Assembly (NCBI GenBank): GCA_964035575.1 | Contig: OZ037898.1 | Location: 682,001 to 746,000 of the forward strand | DNA from: Rhynchopus sp. YZ270_cl-10 | Lineage: Eukaryota; Euglenozoa; Diplonemea; Diplonemida; Diplonemidae | Reading direction: 5' to 3' | Length of the DNA stretch: 64,000 nucleotides | Made by a program: the position numbers and the translations under genes | The notes under the pieces: model-generated | What the model saw: only the letters and a program-made list of their open reading frames with translations | Told to the model about the DNA's origin: nothing | Database searches by the model: none | Shown here: one piece after another, positions 895 through 62,280 of the stretch | Position numbering within the stretch: the first letter of the stretch is position 1 | Layout of the letters: each line of letters opens with the position of its first letter

Positions 895-930
895 TAGGTG
901 ACTAAACACAGAGAGGCTTAGGTTCATCTG
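895..930 (+). repeat. Stem-loop family A1
   Basis: TAGGTGACTAAAC, an ACAGAGAG-type loop and GGCTTAGGTTCATCT. The loop-proximal stem is slightly decayed. Confidence 0.7.
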
Positions 931-1315
931 CTAAACTTCTTTTTTTTAAAGCTGACTAACCCCCAAAGAAAGACTGAGGTCTTACCCTCCCCATTCCCCC
1001 CTTTTTTGTGCAGAATTCCTGTCGTTTTGTTTTTTTTTTTTTGCGACATTTGTGTGGTATATAATTTGCAGATGCGACAAAAGGAAGAAAACGTTTCCAC
1101 TCTTTTTGATAGAGTGTTACCATAAAATAATTATGAGGGCAGAATAATACTGGGGCAATTCAGGGGGAATTTTGGGTTTTTGGGGATGATCTCCGAGAGC
1201 CCTGGTGCATCCCAGCTTTATTCCTTCCCATAATTATTGTTACAGTATAGTGGGATCAACCTCTCAATTAGGCCATTTTGGAGTTTGCCAAGAAACCCCC
1301 TGGTTGATCCTTTTT

Positions 1316-1367
1316 TAAGGTGACTAAGCACGAGACTAATCATCGAGAGGCTTAGGATCATCTTATA
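1316..1367 (+). repeat. Stem-loop family A1, partly duplicated
   Basis: TAAGGTGACTAAGCACGAGA is followed by a second 5' half (CTAATCATCGAGAG) and one 3' half (GCTTAGGATCATCTTA). It looks like a template slip or fusion of two copies. Confidence 0.7.
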
Positions 1368-1687
1368 AACTTTTCTTTTTATTTTGCTCAAAATATTTCT
1401 TATTCAAAGAGGATACAGCGCTGATGGACAAAATTCCATCATTGCTACTGAAAACAAATTATCTTAATCATTTTGCTCAAACAATTGTCCCCCTCTTCCC
1501 CCTCTCTTCTCAGGTCTCGATTTTGCCTTTACGATGGGTGCTAATCAAATCCAGAGGAGGGGTAATGGAAATACCATTTTTCGTGCATCCATTGAGGATG
1601 TCGGCAGTTTAAAAAAAACGTCATCCCTTTTTTTCTGTAGGGTCCTGTGTTCTTGACACAGTTTCCTGCTTGAAACAAAAAGGGGTA

Positions 1688-2452: not shown

Positions 2453-2490
2453 AAAAGGTTACTAAGCACAGTGAGGCTTCGGTTCCACAC
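2453..2490 (+). repeat. Stem-loop family A1, decayed
   Basis: AAAGGTTACTAAGC, loop ACAGTGAG, GCTTCGGTTC. The closing 3' arm is degraded. Confidence 0.6.
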
Positions 2491-2594
2491 AAAAATTTAC
2501 AAAACTTTTTTTCCCCTTTTTTTTCTTCTTTTTTTTTTTGTTAAGACGCAAGTTAACCCCCCTCTCCGGAACCCGGACCCCGAGTTAGGGGTAT

Positions 2595-3206: not shown

Positions 3207-4443
3207 ATGGCAAAGCCAGACTATCTTGCCGCACTGATGGGGCTGGTATGTGCTGTTTGTTTGTTTCTCACGATCACCGATAGTATAAGATGTGACTAAG
3301 CACGAGAGGCTTAGGTTCAATCTTATAACCTTTTCTTTACGAACTCCGGCTGGGGAAATGACATCATCCCTGACAACAAACTTGTGGAAGCCAGCGTAGC
3401 TGATGCTGTGCGATAACGAATATGATAAGGTGACTAAGCACGAGAGGCTTAGGCTCAATCTTATAACCTTTTCTTTCTTATGTACGGTGAGGCGTTTTGC
3501 ACGTTCAACTTCTTTTTCTTTTTCCCCTCAAAACACCCTCTTAACAGATTGCCTGCAGCTGTGCGTTCTTCCTGTTCTCCCAACAACGGCAGGGACCCAT
3601 GACCGAAACGCAACTCGCCGGCGGTCTGTGGAACGTCACATACACAACACAGATGCCGACAGAGAAAATGGGGACCGGGGGTATGCAAATCCCAGAGGGT
3701 GTTTTTTTTTTTTGCAGTCCTTTCTCACCCATTTCCCCCCTCAAATAATTCGACAATAATGAGGTCCTCATCTCAATATTTTCGTCGACGTTATTTCCTG
3801 CTGCATGATAACGAAATGTGATCAAAGGTCGCAGCCCCTACTAAGCAAACGAGAGGCTTCGGATCATCTTATCAAACTTTTCTTGTTTTTGTTTATCTCC
3901 TACCAGCTTCGGCTTCATCCTACAAAAATTCCTCAAAAAAAATTAAATCATTTTGCAGAAACATTCAGCTCGCTTCTGCGGTTCAACATCAGCAAAAAGT
4001 CTCAAGCATTTGGATTCATAGAGCCGCACAATGAAGAGGAAGGCGGGGAACGCGCTATTGCCATGTTTCTGCGTGAAAACGCTGGCACCGTGACGGTTGA
4101 GAGCGATGTGATGGGGGAGATCGGGTTTGATTTTACCTTCTCAGTGGCGGACCTGAACCCGGGGAGCTACGATGCCTCTCGTGTTCTCACCGGGGAATAC
4201 TCTGGAATGCGTGGGAAGGGTCGTGCTGAAGTGACGCTCACGGCAAACACATTTTTCGCTACAGTTGTCAACGCTACTGCAAACGAACCGTTCACAACAA
4301 TCATTGGCGACAGAATTCAGGCCGAAACGAAAAAACCCACCCAGTTTATGGACCAGGTGTTCCTGGGGCTCATGGTCTTCGCAGTGGCCGCAGTTGTGAA
4401 CATCGTCAGAAGTGCGCTTTTCCCTAAACAAAAGGTGCGGTAA
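3207..4443 (+). CDS. Predicted two-anchor membrane protein, unknown function (three exons)
   Basis: The gene is assembled from three exons: 3207-3245, 3548-3680 and 3959-4443. Donors are GTATGT at 3246 and GTATGC at 3681, acceptors are TTAACAG and TTTGCAG, and the phases match (0, then 1). The product is 218 residues. An N-terminal hydrophobic stretch at about residues 5-23 (LAALMGLIACSCAFFLF) spans the first exon junction and looks like a signal anchor. The middle is polar and beta-rich (GTVTVESDVMGEIGFDFTFS). A second hydrophobic segment near the C-terminus (FLGLMVFAVAAVVNIVRSALF is split here as FLGLMVFAVAAV and VNIVRSALF) precedes a short basic tail KQKVR. The topology suggests an endomembrane protein with a lumenal domain. 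I do not recognise the family. Introns 1 and 2 contain family-A stem-loops (3284, 3425, 3836). The shortness of exon 1 is the weakest part of the model. Confidence 0.65.
3284..3327 (+). repeat. Stem-loop family A1, best example
   Basis: TATAAGAT (3284-3291) pairs with ATCTTATA (3320-3327), TGA with TCA, CTAAGC with GCTTAG. The loop is ACGAGAG (3302-3308). It gives 17 base pairs with one small internal loop. It lies in intron 1 of the 3207 gene. Confidence 0.88.
3425..3465 (+). repeat. Stem-loop family A1
   Basis: ATAAGGTGACTAAGC / GCTTAGGCTCAATCTTAT with loop ACGAGAG. Second copy in the same intron, 100 bp after the first. Confidence 0.85.
3836..3872 (+). repeat. Stem-loop family A1, divergent
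   Basis: CTAAGCAAACGAGAGGCTTC followed by GGATCATCTTATC. Located in intron 2 of the 3207 gene. Confidence 0.75.
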
Positions 4444-8017: not shown

Positions 8018-8967
8018 CCATCGTTCGGGAAGAACAAAATCTGTGAGATTATCGAGATGCGAATCTCTGGACCGTGATCTGAGTCTCGGTCGGTTGTGTG
8101 TTTGAAAAAAGTAAAAGAATGTGGGTTCCGTTCTTATGGAACCCTGTAATATATCCCATGATTTGTGGTGTGTCTACCAGCCTTGGTTTCTTGTTTTGTT
8201 CCAAATCTTGTGCCATATTCATTCTTTTGAGGCACATGCATCTTGCAACTATTCTTTCTTTTTTGCAGGCGTTTGTACTGCCAACTTCATTTGTGTTAAA
8301 AGGTGGCTAACGACGCGAGTCTAAGGTTCATCTCAACGTTTCTCTTGTTTTTGATGTGGAACCTCAACTCTATCAGAGTGTGCCCCTGGAACCCTAACCC
8401 AGCAGCGGGCCTCCACTATAAAGAGCAAAATGCAAAAGAGCCCTGTTTCTGTATTTATATTTCTCTAAAACATCACCACAAATTTGCACATTCCATTGGC
8501 GCGCCCGGGTTGTAGGCTACGATTGTCGCCTAATCTCATACACCCCGATATAAAGGCGTGTACTTAGTTTGTACAGCTGATATGGAGGTTACGCTTGCCT
8601 CGTTCCCGCCCCTGAATCACCTCACCCTCTCTATTCTCACAGTGGGGTACACGCCAACACCCACCCCAACCCACAACCCACACACACACTTGCCTTCTTC
8701 TTCTTTTTTCAATCCACTACGGTTTTGTTCTATATTGGCTTCGAATCTGCACAAACAACGTTCCGGGCTCGGGGAAAAAGCAACACGGCAACGGAAGGTG
8801 GCCGTAAGGCATTAAAGGCGAGAGTCTTTTTTTGTTCGGGGTAGCACCGCTCGCCCCGCTCTCTGCCCCCTCTACCCCCCTCAGGGTGTGGGTAGGGGCG
8901 TGTGGTTAGCCTAGCGACCGCGGGTGACAGCTTTGGGCTTTTGCCAAACACAGCAGAGTAAGACATC
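8018..8967. other. Gene-free spacer
   Basis: T-rich spacer between the small basic protein and the kinase gene. It has a weak family-A stem-loop at about 8297-8335 and a short perfect hairpin near 8127-8146 (GGTTCC/GGAACC arms). No coding frame is supported. Confidence 0.5.
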
Positions 8968-11900: not shown

Positions 11901-12941
11901 TTAGATTCATCCAAAAGCTCGACCACCCGCACATCGTGAAGTACTACGGCTGTCTCTACGACGATGCAGAGGGGCAGGTCCAGATCTTCCTCCAGCTCAT
12001 GACCGGGGGCTCGCTTGCGTCTCTCATCATCAAGCACAAAGGCAATGTCCCGCTCGACCTTGTCAAAAAGTACACCCGCCAGCTTCTCCAGGGGCTTGAA
12101 TACCTGCATGCGAGGAAGGTTGTGCACAGAGGTATGCATTCCTTCTAAGGAGGTTTTTCACCGCTTTTGGGCATTTTTTTCAGGATTTATCAATTTTTGG
12201 TAGCAACACAAAAAAATAAAAACAACACCAACAACAACACAGATGTCAAGGGTGCGAACGTTCTTATCCACAACGGCGACTGCGCGCTGGCAGACTTCGG
12301 AACCTCGAAGGCCATCGACGACATGCTGAGCAAAACGAACGGCTGCACAACAATGGTGGGCACACCGTACTGGATGGCGCCCGAGGTCATCACTGCGTGC
12401 GATGACGGTGCGTACGACACGAAGGTCGACGTGTGGAGTGTCGGCTGCACCATCGTCGAGATGGTGACCGGCAACCCCCCGTGGTCCGGCCTGCACGAGA
12501 ACATGTGGGCCGCCATCTTCCACATCGCACAGTCCAGCGAGCCGCCACCACTGCCAGCCGACCTCCCCGACGAAATCAAATGCTTCTTGAATAAGGTATG
12601 CCGCAGAAGAAAGTAAAGAGCTGAAAAAGTTGTTTCTACGAGGGCTGAGGGTGGTCTGTCAACTCTATTTTGCTACGCTTCTCTTCTGTTCTCAATATTT
12701 ATTCACTTAATATGTGTGCACGAGAGTCACATTCATAAGGTTTTTTGACACTCTACATTTAAACTACCGCTCATGCTACCCTTTTGATGAGCAGATGAAC
12801 ACAACCGAGCTGCGTTTTTAGCACTATTCAACTACTCTTTACACCTTTTTCTTTCTCCTTCCTACACAGACATTCGAGCGACTACCCGCTCAGCGTCCTA
12901 CTTGCACCCAGCTTCTGGCAGACCCATGGATTAAACAGTAA
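8968..12941 (+). CDS. Tandem-SAM, doublecortin-like, MAP3K/STE11-type protein kinase (seven exons)
   Basis: Exons are 8968-9014, 9208-9313, 9595-11336, 11416-11512, 11837-12131, 12243-12595 and 12870-12941. All phases join, giving 903 residues. Residues 17-66 form a SAM domain (LLAANGVDD ... LKEMGIPRHGDRIKML) and 75-136 a second one (SLSEYLDAV ... LGISKAGHRKKLWLRM). After a Ser/Pro-rich linker, about 343-443 resembles a doublecortin domain (KVFENGR, CWEDLVNGQWVVAGSANSEF given in part). The kinase starts near 632: glycine loop GRGQFGMVYQG, Lys666 in AVKNV, HRDVKGAN (Asp763), DFGTSK (Asp780), GTPYWMAPEV, and a final RPTCTQLLADPWI. The motifs match STE11/MEKK-type MAP3Ks, where SAM domains mediate scaffold binding; DCX domains bind microtubules. 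All catalytic residues are present. The last three codons follow the usual alpha-I region, so the kinase is C-terminal. Introns carry stem-loops of families B (9337), E (11547) and A (12711). Confidence 0.88.
9337..9395 (+). repeat. Stem-loop family B (two hairpins)
   Basis: Hairpin 1 is CTCTGGGGTTCG/AACC..GGAG; then CCTGCGTTTTGCACTTTCAA with the family tail CAACTTCTCTTT. In intron 2 of the SAM/DCX kinase gene; a partial second copy follows at 9412-9455. Confidence 0.65.
11547..11605 (+). repeat. Stem-loop family E
   Basis: Outer stem CGACA/TGTCG, conserved TTGAGTACAGATC, inner stem CCTGC/GCAGG with loop ACCA, then GTGATTGTCGACACAACAAA. In intron 4 of the kinase gene. Confidence 0.82.
12711..12737 (+). 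repeat. Stem-loop family A2
   Basis: TATGTGTGC, loop ACGAGAG, then TCACATTCATAAGG. In intron 6 of the kinase gene; a partial family-B unit follows at 12795-12835. Confidence 0.7.
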
Positions 12942-13826: not shown

Positions 13827-14047
13827 AACTCTCTCTCTTTTTTTTCTCTTTTTTTTTCTTGCAAAAGCTTCCCTCTTCCCCTCGAAAAACTTTGTTCACA
13901 ACACAACAAAGGGTTCCCGCCTATTTTGGCGGCATACTCACCCGCGCTCCCCCCCTTTTTTATTTACTCCCACTCCCGTAGGCTCGACGAGTATTATTTT
14001 GATGCGCACGTGATGCAGTCATTTGCAACATTTTTTTTTTAAACAAA

Positions 14048-14084
14048 ATGGTGACTAAGCAACAAGAGGCTTAGGTTCATCTTA
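14048..14084 (+). repeat. Stem-loop family A1
   Basis: ATGGTGACTAAGC, loop AACAAGAG, GCTTAGGTTCATCTTAC. Confidence 0.78.
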
Positions 14085-14848
14085 CAAAAACACCCCCCCC
14101 CCCCCCCCCTTTTAAAGAAACAACAGGGCACATGAGTGGACGTTCTTTTCCCCCCCTCCAGTTCTTCGTCCTTTTCAGTTAAATAGGTTATGGCATTTTT
14201 TCTCTTTTCAACTTTAAAAAAAAACAGCTGTGTCACAGAAACATGTAGATAGGTCATGGCTGTCGCCGCTATTCACCCCTCGAAATCTTTAATAGATAGC
14301 ACTTTGTGGAAAAAGATGTGTGTAGGAGGCGAGGTGGACACATCTTTCAAGTTTTCTTTAAGTTTTGCCTGAATTACTTGAAGATATGTGTTTTGTGTAT
14401 GTGTGTGTCAATGTGCACGGTATGCACGTTCATCTTACAAATTTTCTTTTTTTTTTCTTACGCACCCCCCCCCCCTCTTCCCCTTCCCCGAATTCAGTTC
14501 TCCTCTCTCGGTGTGGCTTAACGGTCGTAAGGGCTTTGGTTCACCTAACCGTTTTAGAATATGTGTTTGATAACTATATGGGGAAATTCTTGCACAGAAT
14601 ATAGCCCCATTGTGTGTGTGTGTGTGTGTGTGCAACGAGAAGCACATCTTTCACGTTTTCTTTTTTTCCCCCTCTTTTTACGGGGTACAACATGCAATAT
14701 CTCCCAAAAAAAAAAAGCTGCCCCTTTTTTTCGGTTTCAAACAGTTTTTTTTTCCTTTTTTGTTTTCAGTCTTGCAACGTAGCGGCTTGGTTTAAATAGA
14801 AAAAAAAAAAGGAAGGGAACAGTGTTGTTATGCCTCGCGATGCAATGT

Positions 14849-14919: not shown

Positions 14920-15585
14920 TAATGTGTGCTTTTTTTGTTACATCATTTCCTCTCTCTCTGTGATGTAAATAGTTTGGGTCGATGGAAGTGGGGGGATGAG
15001 GTTCTAAGGGGAGCGATTATCCTCCTAATGAGGTGGATCACGTGGCCATGAAATAATTCATGCAGCCTCCAACAGATAGACATTTGAGAGAACTCGCTTT
15101 TAAGGTGACTAATCAGAGCCTGGTATCATATTACAAACATTATGTTTCCCCCGCCCGCGGAGTGTCAGTGCTTGCGTCTCGGCGTTTGTACTATCAATTT
15201 CACATTTTTTTTGTTTTTGTTTTTGTGACCGGAATGGGGTGTTTTTTTGTATGGTTTATCTCGTAATATTCTCACTGGTGCCTATGTTACAGTAGTCCAA
15301 ATCGCATTGGTCGTCGAAATAAGTTTGGTGAATTTGATAGGATTTTTGAGGTAATTTATCCACTTTTTTTGGATGCCAACATATTTGGGCTACTATAATA
15401 TGGGGAAAATGCGCCATGCGTGATAAACCATCTCCAAAGACAGTTCATGCCAATATCCAAGACTTCGCACGGAAAAGGGAGGACAAAAGGTGTGGACTTC
15501 TTGAAATGTGTTTATTCATTTAAAACCAGGCACATTATTTTTGTGTGTGTTTTTTTAAAAGGGAATCTGTGCAGACGCCTTAAGT

Positions 15586-15624
15586 TAGTGACTAAGCACA
15601 GAGAGGCTTAGGTTCACCCTAATA
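15586..15624 (+). repeat. Stem-loop family A1
   Basis: TAGTGACTAAGC, loop ACAGAGAG, GCTTAGGTTCACCCTA. Followed by T-rich sequence. Confidence 0.75.
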
Positions 15625-15953
15625 ATTTTTTTTTTCTTTACTTTTTTTTTTGCAGTGGTTCCCCTCAGGTACATCTCCCTCTTTTTTTAATTTTTTGTTT
15701 TGGTTTCTATTTTATTTTTTTTTTTTGCGAGTCCCCCCCTCCTTCCCCTTCCCCCCCTTCCCCCCCTTCCCCCCTTCCCCTTCCCCCTCTTCACAAAAAA
15801 CGTGAAGAGGGGATGGGTTTCCCCCCCCTCTCCCTCAACGAATGGTTCATGAGACTTGCAGGCAGCATTCTGCGGGTCTGCTAGTGTGTCACTGCCTATA
15901 TAGGTTCCTTTGCAGGAAGACGGTGCTTCTACTATTACTGTACCTTTTTGACC

Positions 15954-15992
15954 TAAGGTGACCAAGCACCTGAGAGGCTTAGGATCATCTCA
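15954..15992 (+). repeat. Stem-loop family A1
   Basis: TAAGGTGACCAAGC, loop ACCTGAGAG, GCTTAGGATCATCTCA. Confidence 0.78.
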
Positions 15993-16127
15993 TCAAGATT
16001 TGAGTTTTTTTTTTTTTGTTCCAATCTGCCCAAAAAAAAAAACACCCTTCGTAAAATAGGGGATGTGGGAGTGTTCGGCGCGAAGCAAAAAAAAAAAAAA
16101 AAAAGAGGGGGGGAAAAAAATGTAGTG

Positions 16128-16206: not shown

Positions 16207-16208
16207 TG

Positions 16209-18717: not shown

Positions 18718-18757
18718 CCGAGGTGACGAAGTACGCGAGGCTAAGGCTTATCTTACC
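18718..18757 (+). repeat. Stem-loop family A1, divergent
   Basis: GAGGTGACGAAGTACGCGAG then GCTAAGGCTTATCTTACC. Confidence 0.65.
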
Positions 18758-18794
18758 AAACCTTTCTTCTATCGCAATAAAAAAAAAAAAGGGA

Positions 18795-20723: not shown

Positions 20724-20760
20724 AGATGTGTGTGTGTGCACGAGAGGCATATTCATTCTT
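20724..20760 (+). repeat. Stem-loop family A2
   Basis: GATGTGTGTGTGTGC, loop ACGAGAG, GCATATTCATTC. Confidence 0.75.
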
Positions 20761-21988
20761 CAAGTTATTTTTTTTTTTTTTTCTGAAAAGAACGAAAAAT
20801 GAAAAGAGTGTTTTTTTTTTTCTTCGCTTCTTTTGAGGGGGTTTTTGTGTGTGGAAAAGAGTCGGGGTACGGTAGAGCAGACATTTTGTTTTTTTTTTTC
20901 TTCATGAATTAATTTTCTTCATTTATTTTTATCAAAAAAAAATATGCAATTAAACGGGTAGTTCCGTTTGGACGTTTGGCGCATTTTTTTTTGTCTATTT
21001 TTTTTGTTTATGAAATTGAAAGTGCTTGGGTTTGTATGGCCGAGATGGAAGGGGAAAGTGTCAGCATTGCTGTGGGTTTTTTTTTTAAATTTTTTTTTGA
21101 GAAAAGAAGGAGGGGACAGCGATCTTTGTCGCTATCTACCCTATTGTGCATTGCATGGTAGTCTTGGTCGGTTGGACTCTGCCTTTGTTGATAATCCTGA
21201 ATTTTCTTGAATTATTCTTGACTTTCAGAAGTCAGGAAAAAGTCAAGAAATGGTCAAAATTGGGTGTCTTGAGTCTGGTCACAGTCGGGCAGACCACTAT
21301 GCATTTTTTTGCCTCATTTTTTTCATTTTTTTCTTTTTGATATTTTTGTTTTTGGTTCACAAACAAAAAATAAAAATACCCCAGATACATCGGACACCAG
21401 CTCCTCTCCCTTAACACTTCTGATAGGTGGTGAGATATTCCCTTCTGCCCCATCCCTCGTTGCCTGTTTGTTCATCCATATTTTTGTTGATAATGTGACA
21501 ACGGGATCCAGTCACCACATAGGTGGTCAATACTGCAAAGCGTCACCTTGCCCTGTCACCGGTTTTTTTTTGTTTTTTTTTTTGTAGTGAACCGTTTCCA
21601 AGGTTCTATTCTATAATATGAGGGTGTTGGTGTTGTTGTGGCTTTCCATACATCACCCCGAGACAGCGTTGTACAAGGTATGTGTCGAGTACATTAGATA
21701 TTGTGTGCAAGAGAGAGGCACATTATTTGAGAGAAGAAAAAAAAAAATACTGCTGAACCTCTTCTCCGGGGGGGGGACTATGGGATAGGGTTGTTAACTA
21801 TTCTGTTTTCCCAAAAAATTTTCTTCCAAATACTGGAATTGAAAGCAATCTTCAAAATCTTTCAAAAAAAAATACGTATCAGAAGGTGATTTACCTCTGG
21901 GAAAGCTTGGGTGGCCCCTCAAAAGGAAGGCACCTCAAAAGAAAAGAAAATTTCCGCGCGCGGTCCGTAAGGGGTTTAAAAAAAAAGT

Positions 21989-23589: not shown

Positions 23590-23618
23590 GTACACTGTTC
23601 ACGAGAGGGCTTTGTATT
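23590..23618 (+). repeat. Stem-loop family A3
   Basis: GTACACTGTTC, loop ACGAGAG, GGCTTTGTATTTCAAC. Confidence 0.78.
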
Positions 23619-23780
23619 TCAACTTTTTTTTGCGATAAACGAAAAAGTGTTTTCTTTATTTCATTTAACCGTCATATCCTGAAGTCGTTTTTTCTATTTC
23701 ATCCTCTACCTCCCACTTCACTCCTAGACCAGGTCCTCTTTCTCCCCCCACCTTCATTCCTTTTTTGTCTTTCCGATCTT

Positions 23781-36622: not shown

Positions 36623-36639
36623 GCTTTTCGTTCTTTTGA

Positions 36640-40836: not shown

Positions 40837-43176
40837 ATGCCGGATGATGCTGTACTAGAGTCGTTGAGGTTTCTTTCACAGTGCGATCCTGCTGCGATAT
40901 CACGTGCAGCAGTGGGACTCTCACCAGAGGCTGCACAAGCGATCGCCGCCTCTCTTTTGCAGCACCCTGCAGAAGCGCTGAACCCTGCAGGCTCTCCCGA
41001 AGACGATGGTCTCCAACCCTCCCCTCCTCCTCCCCCTCCCCCTCCCGCTCCTGCTGACCTATCTGACATAGAAAACGACCCCGCAAAGGAGAAAGACTCT
41101 CCCACTGAATGTGTCCCCCAGCCGCACCCCCCCGACACAGCGCGCTCAGATAGTAACCGCCATACAATCTGTTCCGCAAGCACAACGTTAACCCGAACGG
41201 AGCGGGCGCGGCTGACTGCGTCGACGCAAAGGGAAACGGTAATACCAAACAATTCATTTGACGGTGAGTCTGGGTTTCATCCGGGTATATTAGAGGCAGA
41301 GAGGCGGCGGGCTTCGATTAAACAGGTTTTTAACCGTTGGGAGTGCAGCCAAGGAGGTGACACTGAAGGAGGAGAGGGTGCGCATGAGGAAGGGGAGGTG
41401 GGGGCTGTGGACCCAGGGGTGTCGCTGGCAGAGCTCGAGGCGGTGCTTGCCTGCTTCTACAGCTGCAGGGATGAGACGTTGGAAAGTGTCAAACAAACCA
41501 GCGAGGTGGACCTACCAGAGCTAGATATCATTAGTTGGCCTGCGTTTGAACAGTATGTATTTTGACTAAAAAAATTAGATGGTCTTTAGGGGTGAAGGAG
41601 GAACTATACCTTCCAGGCTTCGGTCAATATTGAGTGCAGAATTTTCGGAGTTTCTCCCCCCACCAAGGGGAAATTAGGCGAGAGTGGACAAAAATATGAT
41701 TTCAAAAAATAAAATAAAAACAAAATTACTCAGGTATATCACAGCATTGTCGCGGGACAGCTCCCCGAGGGATTTCGATGGGTTGTGTGACTTTTTGATA
41801 CAATGCAATGGTGATGTCTCGAAAGGTATTGATTTCCCCCATACACATGCCTCCCGACACCTAGACTTTCACGGTCATTGTTTTACTCAAAGAGCCCCTA
41901 GCCCCTACACCTGCCTTTCTTGGAAGTGGCGAGGCATTGTGAGGCTTAGGTTCATGTGTAAACTTTTTGGTTTTTTTTTTCATCAACAAAGGGGAGATGC
42001 TTCCATTTTTTAAGAATTTGTTATGATCATTTTTGCATCTACACAGTGCAAGAACGGCAGCGACGCGGGTATCTCGTAAAGAAGCTCTTCACTGTGTGGT
42101 GCGGTACCCCAACGGGAACCATACAGATGGAGGACGTGGCACGTACATTGGAGGTTTGGGTGGCACGCACCCCGCCTGCCTCGGAGGACCTCGTCCGTCT
42201 CTTGCTCTCACGCGCACAGACCAGTGGCACGCACAGCGTCAGCAAAGGGGAGTTCGCCTCACTCATGCTGAACATGGTTTGTTCGACCTCCCCCACCCTT
42301 TTTTACACTTCCAGTACTTCCTTTTCCCCGGTATCACATATGATACTGTTTTCCATTGATACACATGAAAAGGAGTTCCGTGCTATTATCAGAACTAGAC
42401 AGGCGATTGAGCGTATCTAACAACCAAAACAAAGAAAGTACAAGAAAAATACGAAATGCAGGAAAAATATGCAAAGAGAAAGAGATTCTGACAAAGGGAC
42501 AATAAAGGGTGCTTTTTTTTAAAATCAATGCTACACTACACTACTCAAAAATCAGCTTTTCCCTGCAAGCTCGGGGCAGTTTGATACTCTAGTGTACACC
42601 CTCTTGCGTGCACATGAGGTGCGCCGTGCTTGCCCTGTGCACAGCGAGCACAGCGCAGCGCTGTGTGACACGCTTCTCGAGGTTGTGTACGGGAGCGCAT
42701 CAGACCCATTCGCCCCAGTGATCGTGCATGGGGGACGGGTGGACCCGTGTGCCGGGGTAGAGGCAGCTGCTGCAGAGGGCGGGGCGGTGCTGAACACCTT
42801 CCTCCTGACGCACGACCAGTCCGTCGCTGATGCGATTAAAGTGCTTATGAAAAATGGGTTTCAACGTGGCGAGTGGGTGCACATTGTGCTGGACCAGACG
42901 TATCCGTCTGAACCCACGCTACGGCAGGTAGGTATACTATTGTCAACAAATGCCGACAGAGGGGCTGGTATGATCCACAAAAAGTTCCGCATCTTCATCA
43001 GCACCGTGCAAAGCAGTGTGCTAGACTTCCCCAAGGTGCTTCTCCTGAAGGCAGTGCTCATCAATGTCGATACCTTAAAAAGACAGAAAAAGAAAGCCAT
43101 CGCAGACCTCCCTCCTGATCGCAAATCTGCCGCAGAAAGAATCAAGCAAAGAGAACAAAATGCGAGGGCCTGTTAA
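40837..43176 (+). CDS. Protein with EF-hand-like region and dynein heavy-chain AAA6-like domain (four exons)
   Basis: Exons are 40837-41549, 41734-41825, 42047-42276 and 42556-43176, giving 551 residues if the exon 3 donor is GTTTGT. An in-phase GTATCA about 54 bases later is an alternative. The N-terminal third is disordered with a poly-Pro run. About 200-345 is helical with EF-hand-like spacing (SLAELEAVLACFYS, KKLFTVWCGTPTGTIQMEDV) but no complete calcium loop. Exon 4 (346-551) resembles the dynein heavy-chain AAA6 (D6) region: DPFAPVIVHGGRVDPC for the SPGADP segment, an ADAIKVLMKNG helix, then GEWVHIVLDQTY for GxWVxLQNxHL, HKKFRIFIST for HxxFRLWLT, and DFPKVLLLKAVLINVDT. It lacks the rest of the motor ring, so it cannot be a motor. 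It ends in a basic coiled segment. Introns 1 and 2 contain an E element and a weak A element. Confidence 0.68.
41613..41692 (+). repeat. Stem-loop family E, divergent
   Basis: GGCTTCGGTCAATATTGAGT, GCAGAATTT, inner TTTCTCCCC/GGGGAAAT, then GAGAGTGGACAAAAA. In intron 1 of the 40837 gene. Confidence 0.65.
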
Positions 43177-50775: not shown

Positions 50776-52227
50776 TAAGACTGCACACCTGCATTAGCAA
50801 CACACAAATGATTATTTAATCATTGCCCTTTGGCTCAAGGCACCTTTTGCCTTGTTCTTATTATTTACCGACCGCTTCTTTTGCGGCCTTGATAGACCAT
50901 GTGTTGTGGCCCACGTACAGCACTTTCGTGAGCGCACGCGTTCGTGTGTACTTTATTCTACACCTGCCACTGTCCCATTCCATTCCACTTCCCTCTTGTT
51001 AATTTTCCTTTTTGGTTTTCACAAATTTTCTATTAAAATGTTAGTTTCTGAAGTTGGTTCTGTTGGCTCTGCGTCTGCAGACTCCACCTGAGACTTCGAC
51101 TTCAGTGCTCTTGATTTTATTCCCCCTTATTTCCTTTTGCCTCTCAATTTCCTTGTCTTGACATATAGTCTCATTTCATTTGTTTTCGGTATCCACCTCC
51201 GCACGTGCACACTACAGTATAATAGACGACAAAACACAAACCAAAACCACCGTTTCCCGCATAGTTTCCCAACACTAGATACAGCGGGACACGATGCGCG
51301 CAGCAAGGGAACCAGAAGATACATTCCCGAGCCGCGCCTCTCTGTGTGTGTGTGTGTGTAATGTGTGTGAGAGTGTGTGGCCGAACCTTCCGCTCGCATG
51401 AGGGCTCGGTGGACACATGCCGAAGATACAAAAAAAAGTGAAACAAGATACATGCACAATCCAAGAAAGAAACCAAACCACAAACAAACAAAGCACCCCC
51501 TCTCCCTGTTGCCGACACTCTGTCTCATACCCTCCTTCCCATAATGAGTGTTATTGTTAAATGGGTAGGACGGGCCGGGCTGCCGTACCACTGTGACCTC
51601 TACAACGGAAACGTTATTCCCTCCACTTTCCAGAGGAAAACAGTATTCTCTGAGTGAAAAGATTTTGTGATATCCATGGTATCCTCTTTGTTGTTTTTCC
51701 TCGGTTACTTTCTGTTCAAACACCATTCCTCCGTGGGGTAACTACCGGTGTTTTCTCCAAGAAGAAAAATTGGTAAATTGGGCTGCTTGCCCGTAAGAGT
51801 GACCTCACCACAAATGGCGAGGAGTTCGGATATTTCAATTTCTGCATAAATAGGTTTCAGGCCGTCTAGCACGCACTCCCCTCCCAGTCTCAGTATCCCG
51901 CCTACCAGTGGCAAGATCTTTTTTAAAAGGAGGCGGGGAACTTGGTTGCTTGTAGGGATAATGGGACAAGTTGCCTACCTTGGTGCCGAGGTGCTCCTGC
52001 GAAGTCTGTAGAGGTGAGCTGTTGATAACTATTCCTTTTTTATTGGATGTGTACACGAGAGGCACATTCATCTTACAAATTTTTAAAACGTAATTTCCCC
52101 ACACCCCACAGGACACCGTGCGAAAAGCATACTACACTTAACACAAAAGCACGATCCACACTATTTAAAGCGCCCCCCCTTCCTCCCCATCTTTGGTGTC
52201 CCTTCACTGGGCCTACCCATCTCAACA
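50776..52227. other. 3' flank shared with LPMO copy 3, then spacer
   Basis: Bases 50776 to about 51530 are nearly identical to 63331-64000, showing a recent segmental duplication. It includes a CCCGC/GCGGG hairpin near 51256-51289. The remainder holds an A2 stem-loop (52045-52076) and the leader of the next gene. Confidence 0.75.
52045..52076 (+). repeat. Stem-loop family A2
   Basis: GGATGTGTAC, loop ACGAGAG, GCACATTCATCTTAC. Confidence 0.78.
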
Positions 52228-54437
52228 ATGATGCAACGCACTGCTGTGTTGCTGGCGGTGCTGTCGCTGTGCCGTGGACAGGGGGGCGAGGAGGAAGGTC
52301 AAAAGTGTCCGGTGGACTTCCAGATTTTTGGAAACTACACCTGCCATGGGCTGACGGAGTGGTATAAAAAGAGCTCTGCAGGGGAGTTGGTGTATAGTAC
52401 TGTTACTGCTACTTCATCGGAGAACTGCGATTCACAGATTGTAACGTGCAATATCTTTCATACACTTCATGGACACACGACGGTCACAGATATTTACAAT
52501 CGTTCCACCCTTTGCGACACAGGGCTGGTTGTGACCCAACGCTACGACATCAAGATGTACAACGAATCGTCCCAGGAGAACTCCTCCTTCCGGGTCGCGC
52601 AGACGACAGCCTTCCCTTACTCAGGGCGGGTCCCGCATACGACTCCGCTGGGTTTGGTCACTGACGCACCGCAGGAATACCTGCGGGTGCAAATGCGCGG
52701 AGGAGAGTTGAACCGCGAGAGTGGGACACTAAAAGGATTCTTCGCAATGTTTGAGCTCTCGACAGACGCGGAGCTGTTGTTCCAGGAGTGGATGCTGCTG
52801 AGCTATGAGAAGTATTCATGCAACCGGGGGTGGTTGCATGCAGGGTACACCTTGTATCATGATACACAGTGTTTGGTCAAATCGGACTATGTGGATATCA
52901 TTCGTCCGGATGGTTTTTGTTACTTTGCGTCAAAGCAGCCTGTTGCCGGAGACCTGACACAGCCAGGTGGTCTCGGCATTGCGGCCCTCTGTGAAGACGG
53001 ACGGCTCTACTTCTCCAACCTCTTCCCCTCCATCAGCAGCTGCGCAGCTAACATCTCAAGCACATTCCAGCTCAAGCGCGAGGCCTCCTCCATCTCCTAC
53101 GACCACCGTGGGGTGTGTCTCACAGACAACGTCACCTCCATCAAATTCGACGCAGACACATGCCAGAAGGAGCAGAACCGTATGGAAAAACAAAACCATT
53201 TGAAATCAAACCAAAACATCTTCCTCACAGAATGCGTCTGGAAAAAGGGTAAGGTAGGCGGTACGCGCTATAACATTGGAACAAACGTATGCATTGTTTT
53301 GAACCCCATTTTTTTGAAGCGTCAACGCATCAAACAACCACAAGGGGAGGGAACGACACAATGACACTTTTTTCGCATGCTGGTGGCAAATGAAATGCGA
53401 GACGCGGAGTTTCATCTATATTTATTGGTGACTAAAACACGAGAGGCTTAGGGTCAATCTTTATACACTTTTCTTTCTTTCTAAGCCGACGAAGCATTTT
53501 ACTTTTCTTTTCTACGTTTTTGCAAAACACACACCATAAAGATGGGAACATTTTTTGTTGATCCCTCACCATATACTGTCATTTATTGCACATGATGAAA
53601 ATACTGTTTACCAACATCAAAACACCACAACAGCTAACCATGGAGGAATGCTACAACAGCTACGTCACCGCCGGCTTTACTCAAGCACCCTGCGGGATTG
53701 CTTGGAGCGAAAGCGGCGTAGGCTCCCCTACTACCCGGTGCTTCTATTTGGCAGACTCTTGCGTAGCCGAGGTAGACTCCACAGAGCTCAACACCGGAGG
53801 CGCCGAATGGACCTGCATCCTCCGCTCTGCCGCATCACCTATCGAGAAGGCCTCGCAGAACAACCTGGTTCTGGAGGTGCTCATCGTTGTATTGGGGGTA
53901 TGCTGTGTGGTCTTCGTTGCAGTGCTGTTGCGGGTGATTTGTCAGTATCAGAGAAGGTTGAGAATGCGGCCGGACCGTGGTGTGCATGATGTTGATAGTG
54001 GAAGGACGGATGGAGTGGTCCATGGGGTTCCAGTTCCGACGGAACGTCAGTTGGAGCATGATGAGGATGATGATGATGCATGCAGCGCTGGGCCCACCCC
54101 AGATGCAGCGACACCCCCAGAGGATACAGAACGCAACGTCGCGTCGTCCTCCTCTGCATCGCCACAGACCTTCCACCCAGACCCCAATGTCACCGCGAAC
54201 CCTCTGCAAAACCTTGCGTCTCCACAAGGTGCAGTGCAGGAGCGACCCTCCAGACGTTCCCTTGCAGCGCCGTCCTCAGACCCGCAGAGTGATGGAGAAA
54301 GGGAGGAGAGGGGGGGGGAGGAGGAGGAGCAGGGCAGGGAAAGAGAGGTGGTGGAGGAGGAGGAAGTCAGGGTGAACGTCGAGAGTGACGCGGAAGGGGT
54401 GGAGACCGATGAGGAGGTGAGGGTCGGGGTGGCGTAG
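52228..54437 (+). CDS. Single-pass type I membrane glycoprotein, unknown function (two exons)
   Basis: Exons are 52228-53286 and 53634-54437, phase 0 (donor GTATGC, acceptor CAACAG), giving 620 residues. A signal peptide covers about 1-18 (TAVLLAVLSLCRGQG). The ectodomain to about 430 is Cys-rich with many N-glycosylation sites (NYT, NRS, NES, NSS, NIS, NVT), so it should be lumenal or extracellular. A clear membrane span lies at about 431-455 (LVLEVLIVVLGVCCVVFVAV), followed by a basic stop-transfer CQYQRRLRMR. The cytoplasmic tail of ~160 residues is Ser/Pro-rich and then very acidic. I recognise no ectodomain family. It sits among LPMO genes, so a surface sensor or adhesin is conceivable, but nothing in the sequence proves it. 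The intron contains a good A1 stem-loop (53426-53474). Confidence 0.8.
53426..53474 (+). repeat. Stem-loop family A1
   Basis: TTGGTGACTAAAAC, ACGAGAG, GCTTAGGGTCAATC. In the intron of the membrane glycoprotein gene. Confidence 0.78.
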
Positions 54438-54585
54438 TGAAGTGGGGGGGTGGTGGTGGTGGTGTGGCTGCGTGAGTGGTTATTTTTTAAAATTTAAGAG
54501 GGTGTGTTTTGAAATGAGTTGATCGTAGTAGTCAGTACAACTCCCCAAAGCACATCACTCCTGTTTTTTTGGTCATGTACCAAAG

Positions 54586-54615
54586 GTACACTGTTCACGA
54601 GAGTGCTTTGTATTT
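54586..54615 (+). repeat. Stem-loop family A3
   Basis: GTACACTGTTC, loop ACGAGAG, TGCTTTGTATTTCAAG. A partial B unit follows at 54631-54680. Confidence 0.77.
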
Positions 54616-54795
54616 CAAGTCAACTTTTTTTGGGAGTGTCAGTGGCCCTACGTCCCAGAGGCGTTTTTGCACTAAACTTTATTTTTGTCTGGGAAATCAT
54701 CATGTTAAAAGGTGGTTGTGTTTTCCATGTGACATACGAGGGAAAGAGCGTCATATGTGAGGACATAATCTTTTTTCTTTTCTTTCAATTTTTCG

Positions 54796-54832
54796 TTGGT
54801 GACTAAGCACGAGAGGCTTAGGTTCATCTTAC
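54796..54832 (+). repeat. Stem-loop family A1
   Basis: TTGGTGACTAAGC, loop ACGAGAG, GCTTAGGTTCATCTTAC. Consensus-like in the loop and 3' half. Confidence 0.83.
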
Positions 54833-55007
54833 AAACTTTTCTTTTTTTCTTTTGATTGATGTGGGGGGTTTTTTTAGCGTAGTGTAGCTTTCCGTTATTA
54901 CCTTTTTTCATTTTATGTTTTGAAAGGGATGGAAGAGTGTGCGAAAATATTCATCTGTAAAAAAAAAGCAAAACAAAAAATCTGAATTAAATCTGGTCTT
55001 CTTTGAG

Positions 55008-57140: not shown

Positions 57141-57555
57141 AAAAACCCTTTTAAAAAAAAACACATAACTACTCCCTCTCTCTCTCCCCCTATTTACAAT
57201 AACGAAAAGAAAAAAATCCTCTTTTTTTCCCCTGACCAGTAGTCGTATCTCAAAACTTCCCACGCCCCATTGCCAGTTGCAGATTTATTTATTTTCCGTT
57301 CACTTTTTTTTTTTTGGGGAATCAAGGATTCGAAGCAAATGTATGTTTCTCCTCCCCTTTTTGATGTGCGCGCCATGAAGCGCGTTCATCTGTCAACATA
57401 CGTTTTTATTTTATGCCACAGCTGTGTGTGTTTATTTTCATTTTTTTTTTGGCCGTTTTTTTTAAAGACACGTTTTCAGAGTCTAGGGGTGTGCTTCGTT
57501 ACGATTTTGTGTGTACGCGATGCAACATTCGTTTTTTTTTTTTTCAATGTTTCTA

Positions 57556-57592
57556 TAGGTGACTAAGCACGAGAGGCTTATGATCATCTTCT
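57556..57592 (+). repeat. Stem-loop family A1
   Basis: TAGGTGACTAAGC, loop ACGAGAG, GCTTATGATCATCTTCT. Confidence 0.82.
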
Positions 57593-58042
57593 AAACTTTT
57601 CTTTGTTTTGTTCTGTGCTAATGTACGTCGGGCGGAAGGTCCGGTGTGAACACACCCCTAGATGTGTGCACGTCACATCTTTTACGTTTTTTTTTCGTTT
57701 TGTGAAGTGATTTTTGGCGGTGAGGGTTTTTTGTGTTTTTCTCTTCCTCACCCACGAAGAGACACAAACGACGCTTCGGTTCGCATATACCATGTGCATC
57801 AGTAAGGGAGGGTATGTGGAACACAATTTAAAAAGAAAAATTATTCGTGGTACTGTACCCGGTTATGCAGAGTGGAGTGGTGTCTTGACACCTTCAGCGC
57901 AAGGGCGAGTCTGGCATGGAGACTATTCAAACAAGAAGAAAAAAAGTGGGAATGTTTTTTGGTTCAAGGCTCCGTTGCACACAACGTATCCCACACCACA
58001 CACACACAGAGCATTTATATCTACACTACTCAACAAACAACA

Positions 58043-58792: not shown

Positions 58793-59871
58793 GTTGCGTG
58801 ACAGGAGACAAAGCCACACGCCTGCAAAAGGACGTCAGAAACAAACAAACGAAACGAAACAACCAAATCAATATCCCCACCCACGCTTGCGTCACTTCAC
58901 CACTGGCAGCACAGGAGTGCTTGCAGGGCCTCCTTGTGTGTGCTGCGCGTGTTTGTGAAGCAGGCTCTTCTTCCACTATATGAAACTGCAAATCCACAGC
59001 GAGCGCACATCGATCACATGCTCCGTGGAACATATCAAAGCAGTCCCCATATTACTTTTTTACTTTTATCTTTTTGAGCTCTTTGCCGGATCATTTTTCA
59101 TTTTTCTTTTTCATTTTCACTTCCCGTTCGCACTACACGTGTGACTTCTCAACACACCCGAAGGTGCAGAAGCTACCCAGGCAAAGCAATCGCACCTGAC
59201 CCTCTTTTGCACCTTCGTTTTTCTTATCTTTTTGTTGCTCTTTTGCTTCTCCGTCCACGTCAGGCCTGTCTTGTCTGTTGGATGGCTGGGGTTTGTCTTT
59301 GCGAGCTGAGTGCGCTCCTTGCGTGTTCAGCCTCTGGACAAAGAGAAATTTGTTAATTTTTCATTGTGACTCACAAGTTTTTGAACTTGGTACACACCAC
59401 AAGGCATTTCCCCCCTTGTGTTTTCCTTTTCCTTTTCCTTTCTTCATTTTAGCAAAGACCTCTGTCTTTTCCTTTCTTGACAAGATGTGTCCCTTCATAT
59501 GAGTTACAGGATGCCCCCTGCCGACGCCTTCTTCTTGCAACTATGTGTGTGTGCACGCCCCCAGACAGGTGGGTGTTGCGCACACACCTCTTTTTGCTCT
59601 TTTGCCTCAACGACAAAAGAGAAGATGTACGGTGGGAGACATGCAGTGACAGAAGGCATGCACACAAACAATATCAAACCAAATGCAAACCAAATACAAA
59701 ACAACATGCTTTCCCCTATTTTCTTATAGTACCCATTGCCAGCCCACTAATCTCTCTTAATACAAACACACACAGGGTTATTCTCACACACAAGACAACT
59801 AACGAAAGCAGACACATATCGTATACTTACAGAAGAGCTTTGTGCCTCCGTTCTTGCCAGCCTTGTACACG
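58793..59871. other. Gene-free spacer
   Basis: Pyrimidine-rich and less T-homopolymeric than the spacers before 50 kb. No coding frame and no recognised stem-loop family. The last ~120 bp resemble the leaders of the other LPMO copies (ACACACAGGGTTATT). Confidence 0.5.
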
Positions 59872-60885
59872 ATGGTGACCAGGATGCTGCTGCTGGCATG
59901 TGTTGCTGTGTCGGTGTCCGGACACGGGTACGTGGAGTCGCCGCCGTCACGCGGGTTTGGCTGCAAGACTGGGCTGAACTCCGGGTGCGGGTCTGTGCAG
60001 TACGAGCCGCAGAGCGTGGAGGGTCCTGACGGGTGGCCTTCGGGAGGCCCTGCGGACGGGACACTGGCGGCTGCGGGACGTGCAAACTTTGGGGAGCTGA
60101 ATGCTCAGACGCCGACACGTTGGGGGAAGACTGCGATTGCGGGCGGTGTGCACGTGTTCACGTGGCAGTTCTCTGCAGCGCACGTGACGCGCGACTTCAG
60201 GTACTACATCACACGTGTGGGGTGGGACGAGAACGCGCCGCTGGGGACGTCGTCGTTTGACACAACGCCGTTCTGTGTGGTGGACGGGGGGATGGTGATG
60301 CCTGCAAACCCTTCGAGCCACAGCTGCACGGTGCCCACACGCTCGGGGTACCACGTTGTGCTCGCTGTGTGGGATGTGGGTGACACCCCTGCAAGCTTCT
60401 ACAACGCGATTGACGTGACGATTGGTGGTGCGGGCCCGACTCCCCCTGTCCCTGTGCCACCACCGACGCCAACTATGCCTGTGCCCACACCACCGACACC
60501 ACCGACACCAACTGTGCCTGTGCCCACACCTCCGTCGGGTGGATGCTCGGGTGGTGCGGGGGTGGCTCTGTGGGGCAACTGCAGGGCTGCGCCGCACTGC
60601 TGTGCGTCGGGGTCGACGTGCTACGAGCAGAGCGACTGTTTCGCACAGTGCAAGCCGTCGTGCTCCACAGCAGATGGGTGGACGTGCCGTGTGCTCGGAG
60701 CGGACGCAGGACCGACGCCTCCCACACCCCCGACACCAACAGCGCCTGTGCCCGTGCCAACACCACCGACAAGTGGATGCAGTGCAGCGATCCCTGCGTG
60801 GGGTCCATGTCTGGGGAAGGAACACTGCTGCGCTGCAGGGCTGCAGTGCACAGGGACGCAGTGGTGGAAGTCGTGCAAACAGTAA
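59872..60885 (+). CDS. AA10 lytic polysaccharide monooxygenase with two CBM1-like modules, copy 2
   Basis: 337 residues. A 17-residue signal peptide (MVTRMLLLACVAVSVSG) leaves His18 as the N-terminal copper ligand. The second brace His is in FSAAHVTRDFRYY. The catalytic domain is the most divergent of the three (VHVFTWQFSAAHV, GWDENAPL, GGMVMPANPS) but keeps every expected AA10 motif, including SGYHVVLAVWDV and SFYNAIDV. Linkers are longer Pro/Thr repeats (PPTPPTPTVPVPTPP). The first CBM1-like module is nearly identical to copy 1; the second differs (SAAIPAWGPCLGKEHCC, QWWKSCKQ). Its better W-G-C spacing in AWGPC is closer to canonical CBM1. The different linker and second module suggest altered substrate binding. 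Its 3' flank is diverged from the flanks of copies 1 and 3, so this duplication is older. Confidence 0.93.
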   Translation: MVTRMLLLACVAVSVSGHGYVESPPSRGFGCKTGLNSGCGSVQYEPQSVEGPDGWPSGGPADGTLAAAGRANFGELNAQTPTRWGKTAIAGGVHVFTWQFSAAHVTRDFRYYITRVGWDENAPLGTSSFDTTPFCVVDGGMVMPANPSSHSCTVPTRSGYHVVLAVWDVGDTPASFYNAIDVTIGGAGPTPPVPVPPPTPTMPVPTPPTPPTPTVPVPTPPSGGCSGGAGVALWGNCRAAPHCCASGSTCYEQSDCFAQCKPSCSTADGWTCRVLGADAGPTPPTPPTPTAPVPVPTPPTSGCSAAIPAWGPCLGKEHCCAAGLQCTGTQWWKSCKQ

Positions 60886-62280
60886 GCAGCAAGCAGGGAT
60901 CGTGAGCGTCGCATATAACTATCCTTCCCATACTTTTCTTAATAACAAACTAGCTACAACTCTTGTTTCAGTTTCAAAGTCTGTCACAAAAAAAAGACAC
61001 ACCTTGTTTGTGGGGTCTTTTCTGTTGGGCAACACATTAAATGCCTTATTTTTCGTTTCTATTATACTGGGTGATGAAGCGCAGCTGCGAGGCTTCGGTT
61101 CATCATCATCATATACTTTACGTAGTTTTGCCCTTCGGTTCCAACCGAACCCCTTTTTCTTATCCCTTCAATTGCTTTATACTTGATCTACTTTTTACCA
61201 CCCGCTTCCATTTGCGGACATACTAGACCATGTTCATGTGTCCCACGTACAGCATCTTTGTTGAGTGCATGCGTTGGTGTAAACTTTGTTCTATGCCTGC
61301 CACATCCCTATTCCTATCCCTATTCCTATTCCCTCTATGATACTGCAAACAAAAAGCAAAAGGGAGGTGACAATGTCGCCTTGTTGTGTCCACATTCCAC
61401 TCCCCATGTTTCGCATGCAGTGCAGTCCTGTTGCCTCAGCGACGTCTCTGCACACCACAAACGCACAAGAAACATGGCTGCGGTGGCCAGCCCTGTCCAA
61501 CCGTTCCCCACCATTCCCTCCCCTCGCGTGCACCACACACACACACACGGTGGTTGGAGAAGAGGTGGATGATTTGGTGGTCCCTTTGTTCACTATTCGC
61601 TTTTTGACGTTTGCCTTTCGCCCCTTTTTTTCTATTTTTGGTTCTGAAATTGGCTCTGTGGTGGCTCTGTGTGTCTGCAGGCTGCACCAGGGACTTCAAC
61701 TTCAGCGTTTTCTTTATATGTCCTACCTTCAAAAGTTGCTTCTCTTGACTACTCTTCCATACAGTTCCATTTTATTCTTCGGTTATCCACCTTTCTTGTG
61801 CGTGCCTTTCACGTGCACAAGAAAACGAGACCAAACAAAACCACCCTTTCCCGCATAGTTGCCAAGCTAGATATAGCGGGAACAGATGTGCACAGCAAAG
61901 AAACCAGAGGATACATTTCTGAGCTGAGCCTGCAGGTGTATGCGTTTGTACATGGGATGTGTGTCCGAGTCTCTGCTCTAACGAGGCTCGGGGAGACATG
62001 CCGAAGACACAACAGATGGAACAAAAATAAAACATGACACAATCCAATAAATATGCAAAAAAAGACAAAAAATAAAAAAGAACACACCTCCCCAAGTCCC
62101 CTCTTTTCTCCTCAAAACAGACGATACCCTTTCCCAAGAAACCAAAACCCACCCACGAATCAACACAACACACCCACAGGTGTTTTCATCTACACACAAA
62201 AACAACAACTAAAAGCACCAGTTGCACACGCGCAGAAGAAGAAAAACAGGTTGGTTGCAGGCTTTGCGCACACAAATAAA
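60886..62280. other. Spacer between LPMO copies 2 and 3
   Basis: The first part is a diverged version of the 3' flank of copies 1 and 3, with an A-family-like stem-loop (61070-61105) and a CCCGC/GCGGG hairpin near 61851-61881. The end is the shared LPMO leader. No further gene is supported. Confidence 0.6.
61070..61105 (+). repeat. Stem-loop family A, new stem
   Basis: GATGA/TCATC helix 1, GAAGC/GCTTC helix 2, loop GCAGCTGCGAG, then the family GGTTCATC. Downstream of LPMO copy 2. Confidence 0.68.

Follow-up and report, generated by a model that had tools for sequence, protein, structure and literature searches.

Dispersed hairpins of a diplonemid genome as probable 3' tails of non-LTR retrotransposons that follow the direction of transcription

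A 64-kb stretch of contig OZ037898.1 of the diplonemid Rhynchopus sp. YZ270_cl-10 (contig positions 682001 to 746000, in a genome of 152 Mb and 126 contigs), here called the window, carries about thirty short hairpins that share a consensus loop, ACGAGAG, on stems of unlike sequence. Does this pattern mark an RNA structure under selection, or is it the debris of a mobile element, the two options that the original prediction from the sequence had offered? We argue, with a probability of roughly 0.8, that they represent stem-loops from the 3' termini of non-long terminal repeat (non-LTR) retrotransposons, present mostly as tail-only copies of that end, about 47 to 50 bp long.

Hairpin census and consensus

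Three stem versions occur in the window: A (TGTGC/GCACA), B (CTAAGC/GCTTAG), and C (GTC/GGC plus TACA/TGTA), and the examples first given for them, at 36272, 3284, and 23590, respectively, are as described. The conserved block is sharply bounded, with about 11 nt, the loop, 20 nt, and a final T-rich stretch of some 20 nt. A score scan with a threshold of 21 of 27 to 28 found 28 hairpins in the window, all on the plus strand, in line with the thirty or so dispersed copies of shared layout expected there. In a 234-kb sample composed of the window and tiles of contig C19, the latter oriented by block, 69 copies reached this threshold (39 B, 17 A, and 13 C), all in sense, and the two antisense matches at the threshold were the same hairpins read backwards. 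Because the C19 tiles were turned by hand (reversed below 966 kb) after the hairpin strands had been seen, this count of 69:0 has independent value just for the window (28:0) and within tiles. Four of the C19 tiles had been chosen for holding hairpin matches. A covariance model of the kind that had been proposed, trained on 28 B copies, matched 89 places (E ≤ 5) over 264 kb, 88 of them on the locally expected strand and the lone other one with an E value of 1.6.

Genome-wide, strict patterns matched 1,789 places for B and 286 for A, with none for either reversed-pattern control, which sets the floor for the hairpin total; some copies match the A and B patterns alike, and fixed-site patterns favor young copies. 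(The genome pattern searches matched 268, 1,789, 286, 1,373, and 364 places, the first 100 of each being listed.) The hairpins are far more frequent than chance predicts. The 64-kb window has 28 copies at or above the threshold and an unbroken 130-kb run of C19 tiles another 28, so that the genome would hold some 30,000 to 70,000 hairpins, provided that both regions are representative.

The loop and the 3' strand had been taken as constant, which they are not. The exact loop is found in 12/28 window copies and in 24/69 copies of the 234-kb sample, the exact strand TTCATCTTA in 6/28 and 14/69, and version C carries a different 3' strand. The copy at 61066 to 61117 does have the predicted GAAGC/GCTTC stem, but its loop region reads GCAGCTGCGAG. 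Against mononucleotide shuffles, folding gave z values of -4.1 for A, -3.1 for B, and only -0.4 for C, which is therefore a weak hairpin. A known RNA family was ruled out, as the 42 Rfam matches in the window (evalue mode, E ≤ 1) are subthreshold, mostly to microRNA families, and none falls at a hairpin. We found no report of such hairpins in the literature searched, part of which returned little or nothing.

Version B as the 3' end of a LINE

Two or three of the sampled B copies show homology upstream of the hairpin. A 5'-extended B query gave 40 scored places, including the query itself, at 93 to 100% identity, and in 8 of the 40 an RVT_1 domain stands about 1.6 kb upstream, in the same orientation. 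At one of the loci (L043), an upstream open reading frame (ORF) is followed by ORF2 (605 to 4969; 1,454 amino acids), which codes for an APE-type endonuclease (PF03372, E 1e-13) and a reverse transcriptase (RT; PF00078, E 1e-23) and has human L1 ORF2p as its best solved relative, and the ORF2 stop is followed after 12 nt by GGTGAC and then by the tail. Five copies of this long interspersed nuclear element (LINE), which we call LINE-B, agree through the tail ...TTATAAACTTTTCTT, after which the flanks diverge; a single A/G stem difference occurs, in two of them. A tblastn search with ORF2 returned 33 matches, of which 18 span amino acids 2 to 1454 at 95 to 100%, 12 are 5' truncated (starting at amino acids 265 to 834 and ending at 1454), and 3 are pieces with other ends. 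Target-primed reverse transcription characteristically leaves such copies, with variable 5' starts and a constant 3' end. The B hairpin and its tail are thus the 3' end of a non-LTR retrotransposon, and the mobile-element option stands for this version.

Copies of LINE-B are near-full, 5' truncated, or reduced to the hairpin, and the short ones mutate regardless of pairing (see below). At 364 places across the genome the match continues upstream for 17 nt, reaching or passing the ORF2 stop region (at most 3 mismatches), and in the 234-kb sample ORF2 is found at 2 places and the LINE-B 3' end at 33, all in sense. The statement that no described family has this motif holds for Rfam, but the protein that goes with version B has 114 matches in public data, the top one 99% identical and unnamed and the remainder from 53 to 54% downwards, many labeled Diplonema papillatum (48% for the best of these).

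Tail-only copies and other tail families

How far the copies reach upstream was surveyed at a threshold of 20, after two tandem-duplicate copies in locus L027 had been dropped. Among 44 sampled B copies, 41 extend only 0 to 6 nt upstream of GGTGAC, one extends 14 nt, and two run into ORF2, giving a tail-only unit of about 47 to 50 bp whose start falls inside the outer helix of the LINE-B hairpin (ATAAGGTGA/TCATCTTAT); copies that begin inside the hairpin are partly missed by this survey. Near-consensus copies across the genome, with 364 extended places versus 1,789 strict hairpins, have a larger extended share than the sample. Two A copies show the same unit of about 50 bp in unrelated flanks, starting at the matching structural point. 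No head of a short interspersed nuclear element (SINE) was recognized, conservation of A and B beginning at the hairpin, and a tRNA-derived SINE was rejected, as ARAGORN found no tRNA gene in the window. For C, four sampled copies agree back only to about CAGATG; a sharp start was rejected, because 39/40 places begin at query base 1 to 3 but the query had been cut there. A LINE for version A was also rejected at loci L052 and L053, where two A copies have no long ORF reaching the hairpin.

The sharp start raises a serious contender, to which we give somewhat less than even odds: the tail-only copies would not be aborted LINE-B insertions but a headless micro-SINE, with its own RNA of about 50 nt, parasitizing LINE-B. 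It is compatible with an origin of the hairpins as retrotransposon 3' ends and implies a discrete RNA of about 50 to 60 nt starting at GGTGACTAAGC. Besides the 41/44 B copies with nearly one start, it gains from the variable starts of ORF2-bearing copies and the matching start of the A copies in unrelated flanks. It loses from the lack of a recognizable promoter or head within about 47 nt and from the incomplete capture of copies that begin inside the hairpin, and a structure-dependent stop of reverse transcription would give a fixed end equally well.

Other families form similar units. The 3' untranslated region of a second LINE (1,747-amino-acid ORF, locus L045), TATAGTGGAGCAC...AAGTTTTC(A)n, recurs as tail-only units that mostly start 10 to 14 nt after the beginning of the stop codon, and in the window these A-tailed units lie at 20605 to 20669, 43438 to 43505, 28150 to 28207, 13332 to 13399, and 16209 to 16272. 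Family D (37916 to 37985 and 18793 to 18862) is a unit of about 70 nt with two hairpins (GGGT/ACCC and ATACTTTCA/TGAAAGTAT), 84 to 100% identical at 38 or more other places of the genome and standing directly behind an A-, B-, or C-like tail in 4 of 12 loci (L031 to L042). Family E (36046 to 36110, 19702 to 19769, and 32349 to 32418) is an A-tailed unit of about 60 nt, AGTGGAGATTGCACAACTGTGGCAACACAACCGAGG..., that resembles the tail-only units.

Orientation relative to transcription

Seven of the 10 plus-strand ORFs of the window given to Pfam had matches and none of the 10 minus-strand ones did, so the window genes run on the plus strand, as do all of its hairpins. On contig C19 the hairpins are on the minus strand up to 976 kb and on the plus strand from 1,008 kb, and in the right block the ORFs with above-cutoff Pfam matches (thiolase, GNAT, and MAPEG) are on the plus strand. 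An antisense ORF within a sense block (L019:313-1035), with an RNase H match below the Pfam cutoff, is perhaps another retroelement inserted antisense. Outside the window and C19, sense refers to the block pattern and not to annotated genes. For 307 listed hairpin places on 34 contigs, the 273 neighbor pairs include 28 strand switches and a single isolated place, where 23 contigs have one switch, 9 have none, C1 has three, and C2 has two. Among the listed places, the 23 single-switch contigs turn from minus on the left to plus on the right, which gives chromosomes the look of two long transcription units that diverge. LINE-B copies that reach ORF2 follow the same pattern (79 of 100 listed, on 24 contigs with at least 2; 55 neighbor pairs, 14 switches, none isolated). 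Hairpin orientation thus follows transcription and is near-exclusively sense.

Of 739 RT candidates, 150 were scored and 145 were used, leaving out five rows of a 3,381-amino-acid family; families were grouped by ORF length, with some shorter ORFs assigned by their neighborhood in the ranking. Compared with the orientation blocks, which are defined by the hairpins themselves, LINE-B RT domains were in the same orientation in 14 cases and opposite in none (3 in switch intervals and 10 unplaced), against 39 same and 29 opposite for all other RT families (Fisher P = 0.0015 for all placed domains). With two-sided calls the figures are 6:0 versus 19:9 (P = 0.16, not significant alone), and another RT family (1619) is likewise 6:0. 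One-sided calls may err near switches, where 3/40 extended-B and 1/38 family D places came out opposite. Family D was otherwise 19 same, with that 1 opposite, 4 in switch intervals, and 14 unplaced. Besides the 33:0 of the LINE-B end, sense-to-antisense counts in the 234-kb sample were 15:0 for C, 9:0 for E, 3:0 for D, and 20:2 for the 1,747-amino-acid LINE tail, whose 20 sense matches may include matches to A runs and whose 2 antisense ones are real partial copies.

Targeting of T-rich tracts was rejected as the sole cause, as the sense strand has only 391 T-rich versus 239 A-rich tracts. Insertion tied to the transcribed strand, for example by nicking of the template strand only, might produce sense-only copies, although this suggestion is a faint one. 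Selective loss of antisense insertions, which would leave the insertion mechanics out of the matter, seems rather unlikely to us. A reversed copy would presumably bring A-rich sequence and a donor-like GTAAGA site into the transcript, and the SIDERs of Leishmania are about fourfold sense biased according to PMC2689281. However, much larger elements of other RT families do stand antisense (29/68 placed; 9/28 by two-sided calls), which is why we favor template-strand nicking over loss, T-ended and A-ended tail families are biased alike, and there is hardly any exception even for near-consensus copies.

Covariation and decay of copies

Compensatory change had been read as a sign of selection. It is there between the three versions, but tests within A and B detected none inside either, and covariation is confined to the differences between versions. 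Over 28 aligned B copies and 11 pairs, 90.3% of positions were paired versus 90.2% in shuffles. In 100 listed genome copies of each version, taken with the loop and outer helix fixed in the pattern, which favors young copies, and the inner stem free, pairing was 571/600 for B (shuffles, 569.2; standard deviation, 1.2) and 446/500 for A (443.1; standard deviation, 2.0), with no excess. One-sided stem changes kept or broke the pair in ratios of 12:28 for B and 41:53 for A, or 12:10 and 41:40 for transitions alone, as chance predicts, and paired double changes in A numbered 7 of 500 cells versus 4.3 in shuffles. Nor is the loop better kept than the stem, as had been supposed: a pattern that fixed the stems and left the loop open showed loop mutations in 22 of the 100 B copies listed, all with intact stems, and B substitutions per site were 4.4% (31/700) in the loop versus 4.0% (48/1,200) in the stem. 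With pairing as in shuffles and a loop that mutates like the stem, individual copies are therefore not maintained as structures; resident copies decay like dead repeats.

This bears on the idea that polycistronic transcripts use the hairpins as functional cis RNA elements (in processing, stability, or splicing) and that LINE-B merely carries one as its 3' signal. Near-exclusive sense orientation, high density, and the placing of copies in introns and between genes, with 0/31 window positions inside the 14 ORFs compared, all fit such a role. A selected RNA structure would be expected to show within-copy covariation above shuffles, and none was found for A and B. Tails that run into CAG (52042; L017 2448) had suggested a splice-acceptor or branch-point module, which was ruled out, as a YAG follows within 30 nt in 31.9% of cases versus 27.8% for T-rich control tracts. 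Moreover, the gene stretch from 43.7 to 52.0 kb (ankyrin, Sec5, and LPMO genes) has no hairpins by scan or covariance model, and tail families of unlike sequence are equally sense biased, so that we consider a cis role improbable. A cruciform or single-stranded DNA element moved by a strand-specific DNA transposase is scarcely credible: hairpin, strand specificity, and target duplications not above controls would suit it, but B terminates an RT element whose copies form a series of 5' truncations, which largely refutes it for B and leaves it to A and C only if these are unrelated to any LINE.

Proposed mechanism

By analogy with the zebrafish elements described below, the LINE-B ORF2 protein may select its template by binding the hairpin in a way that depends on the loop and accepts any stem that pairs, and would then prime on the U-rich end at T-rich sites. 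Such a protein would account for a consensus loop common to A, B, and C despite their differing stems, and template choice that depends on the hairpin would keep pairing in replicating lineages and not in dead copies. The A and C tails would be mobilized by LINE-B or a sister LINE. Tail-only copies might, on slender grounds, have a short RNA as their source, or reverse transcription might halt at a fixed point. A bolder picture, which we regard as tentative and put below even odds, is that of strand-locked LINEs in which priming of reverse transcription is restricted to the template strand in polycistronic units and whose loop-reading ORF2 protein spreads headless tails of about 50 nt, of several sequences, by the ten-thousand.

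Several results weigh against an origin of all hairpins as retrotransposon tails. The fixed 5' end is unlike random 5' truncation. For A and C no LINE was found: no listed A, C, or D place is within 6 kb of the 145 RT domains, and the 2.1 to 2.2 kb that follow the RT in 8 other families gave no match scoring at least 20. To these are added the weak folding of C, the low share of exact loops in the 234-kb sample, and the tract ratio, as insertion at T-rich tracts predicts a mild bias and not exclusive sense orientation. Finally, target-site duplications of at least 8 nt were found for 6.2% of short copies, the only ones compared, versus 5.2% of mismatched pairs, in T-rich flanks that hide duplications.

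Relation to known systems

Introner elements are short intronic repeats that lie in sense; unlike them, only three of the window copies are placed in introns, the others lying between ORFs, and no splice acceptor is enriched beside the hairpins. To our knowledge, the tail-only units would rank among the shortest retroposons. A close likeness is to stringent LINEs and their SINE partners (ZfL2-1/ZfL2-2 and eel UnaL2), in which the LINE and a larger number of short copies carry a common 3'-terminal stem-loop. According to PMC4176376, recognition of the 3' stem-loop by the ORF2 protein of zebrafish L2-clade LINEs has its specificity set by the loop, and ZfL2-2 accepts a foreign stem if the loop is correct. 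A consensus loop with exchangeable paired stems recalls ZfL2-2, with binding seen in zebrafish and only supposed here. Unlike those systems, the short B copies are the tail alone, of about 47 to 50 nt and with no head recognized, orientation follows transcription, the 3' end is T rich, and the host is a diplonemid.

The SIDERs, relatives of ingi/L1Tc, are also short degenerate LINE relatives with a sense bias in a polycistronic euglenozoan, at about 4:1 (PMC2689281) versus 28:0 in the window. Trypanosomatid retroposons share a 79-bp signature (PMC2323293). LINE proteins of D. papillatum (DIPPA_05013, DIPPA_12764, and records named "transposon X-element" or "R2") match LINE-B at about 45 to 48% over the RT in the better cases, many with endonuclease and RT domains like LINE-B, the comparison being by protein only. 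Tails of stringent LINEs are known in kind, but copies that consist of the tail alone and stand almost without exception in sense are unusual.

Gene context of the window copies

The window copies are listed in Table 1. Three B elements (3287, 3425, and 3837) lie within the two GTATG...CAG introns of one predicted gene, the second in a truncated LINE-B copy formed by the final 77 nt of ORF2 (3337 to 3413), the hairpin, and a T-rich tail.

Table 1. Hairpins, LINE-B copy, and predicted host gene of the window (window positions)
Feature	Positions	Strand	Basis
B hairpin, tail-only	893..941	+	covariance model
B hairpin; 3' strand and tail as LINE-B (bulge A, TTATAAAC)	1315..1375	+	scan, covariance model, LINE-B alignment
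B hairpin, diverged	2453..2499	+	covariance model
Predicted host gene, 3 exons (3207-3245, 3548-3680, 3959-4443), 218 codons	3207..4443	+	exon joining
B hairpin, intron 1 of predicted gene	3287..3335	+	covariance model
5'-truncated LINE-B copy, intron 1	3337..3473	+	96% to ORF2, 94% to 3' end
B hairpin, intron 2 of predicted gene	3837..3881	+	covariance model
B hairpin, diverged	8298..8345	+	covariance model
A hairpin	12709..12737	+	
B hairpin	14046..14094	+	covariance model
A hairpin	14402..14449	+	score scan
B hairpin	15583..15631	+	covariance model
B hairpin	15953..16002	+	covariance model
B hairpin	18718..18765	+	covariance model
A hairpin	20725..20772	+	score scan
C hairpin with part of longer C unit	23573..23633	+	score scan
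Longest C unit of window, 75% to C unit of locus L028	26536..26663	+	score scan
B hairpin	31370..31417	+	covariance model
B hairpin	31442..31490	+	covariance model
A hairpin	32580..32627	+	score scan
A hairpin, consensus copy	36273..36320	+	score scan
B hairpin, C unit directly after	36587..36629	+	covariance model
C hairpin	36634..36681	+	score scan
A hairpin	37517..37566	+	score scan
B hairpin, diverged	41921..41969	+	covariance model
A hairpin	52038..52087	+	score scan
B hairpin, 59 nt past the stop of an ORF	53423..53472	+	covariance model
C hairpin	54581..54629	+	score scan
B hairpin, consensus copy	54794..54841	+	covariance model
C hairpin, diverged loop	55577..55625	+	score scan
A hairpin, CGCGC/GCGCG stem	57359..57405	+	score scan
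B hairpin	57554..57601	+	covariance model
B relative, GAAGC/GCTTC stem, loop not ACGAGAG	61066..61117	+	covariance model, E 0.006

A search of the genome with a spliced-leader motif found 737 places, and the leader genes at loci L009 and L010 read CCAACGATTTCTAAAGCTACAGTTTCTGTACTTCATTG and then GTATGG, close to the diplonemid spliced leader. U2 genes are located among the leader genes, as PMC10161547 reports for D. papillatum, and intron sites of the GTATG...CAG type, as in the two introns placed in the window, are reported for several Diplonemidae in PMC12621601. Three paralogous LPMO-type genes (49549 to 50775, 59842 to 60885, and 62053 to 63330) share 85 to 89% DNA identity; the first and third were given to Pfam, and both matched LPMO_10. 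Copy 2 has a longer flank, which contains the 61066 hairpin; an insertion in this flank (60.9 to 61.2 kb) was rejected, as the extra 220 nt or so are not a clean insertion. Four long inverted repeats (2592 to 2707, 5197 to 5376, 44056 to 44172, and 56964 to 57166), with arms of up to about 88 nt, draw Rfam microRNA matches below gathering scores and are possibly hairpin DNA elements.

Significance

What appeared to be an RNA family becomes a natural experiment on the template choice of LINEs, with one consensus loop, three interchangeable stems, and thousands of copies. If the strand lock arises from the insertion step, it would provide direct evidence that retrotransposition is coupled to transcription, and the direction of transcription along diplonemid chromosomes could be read from the tails.

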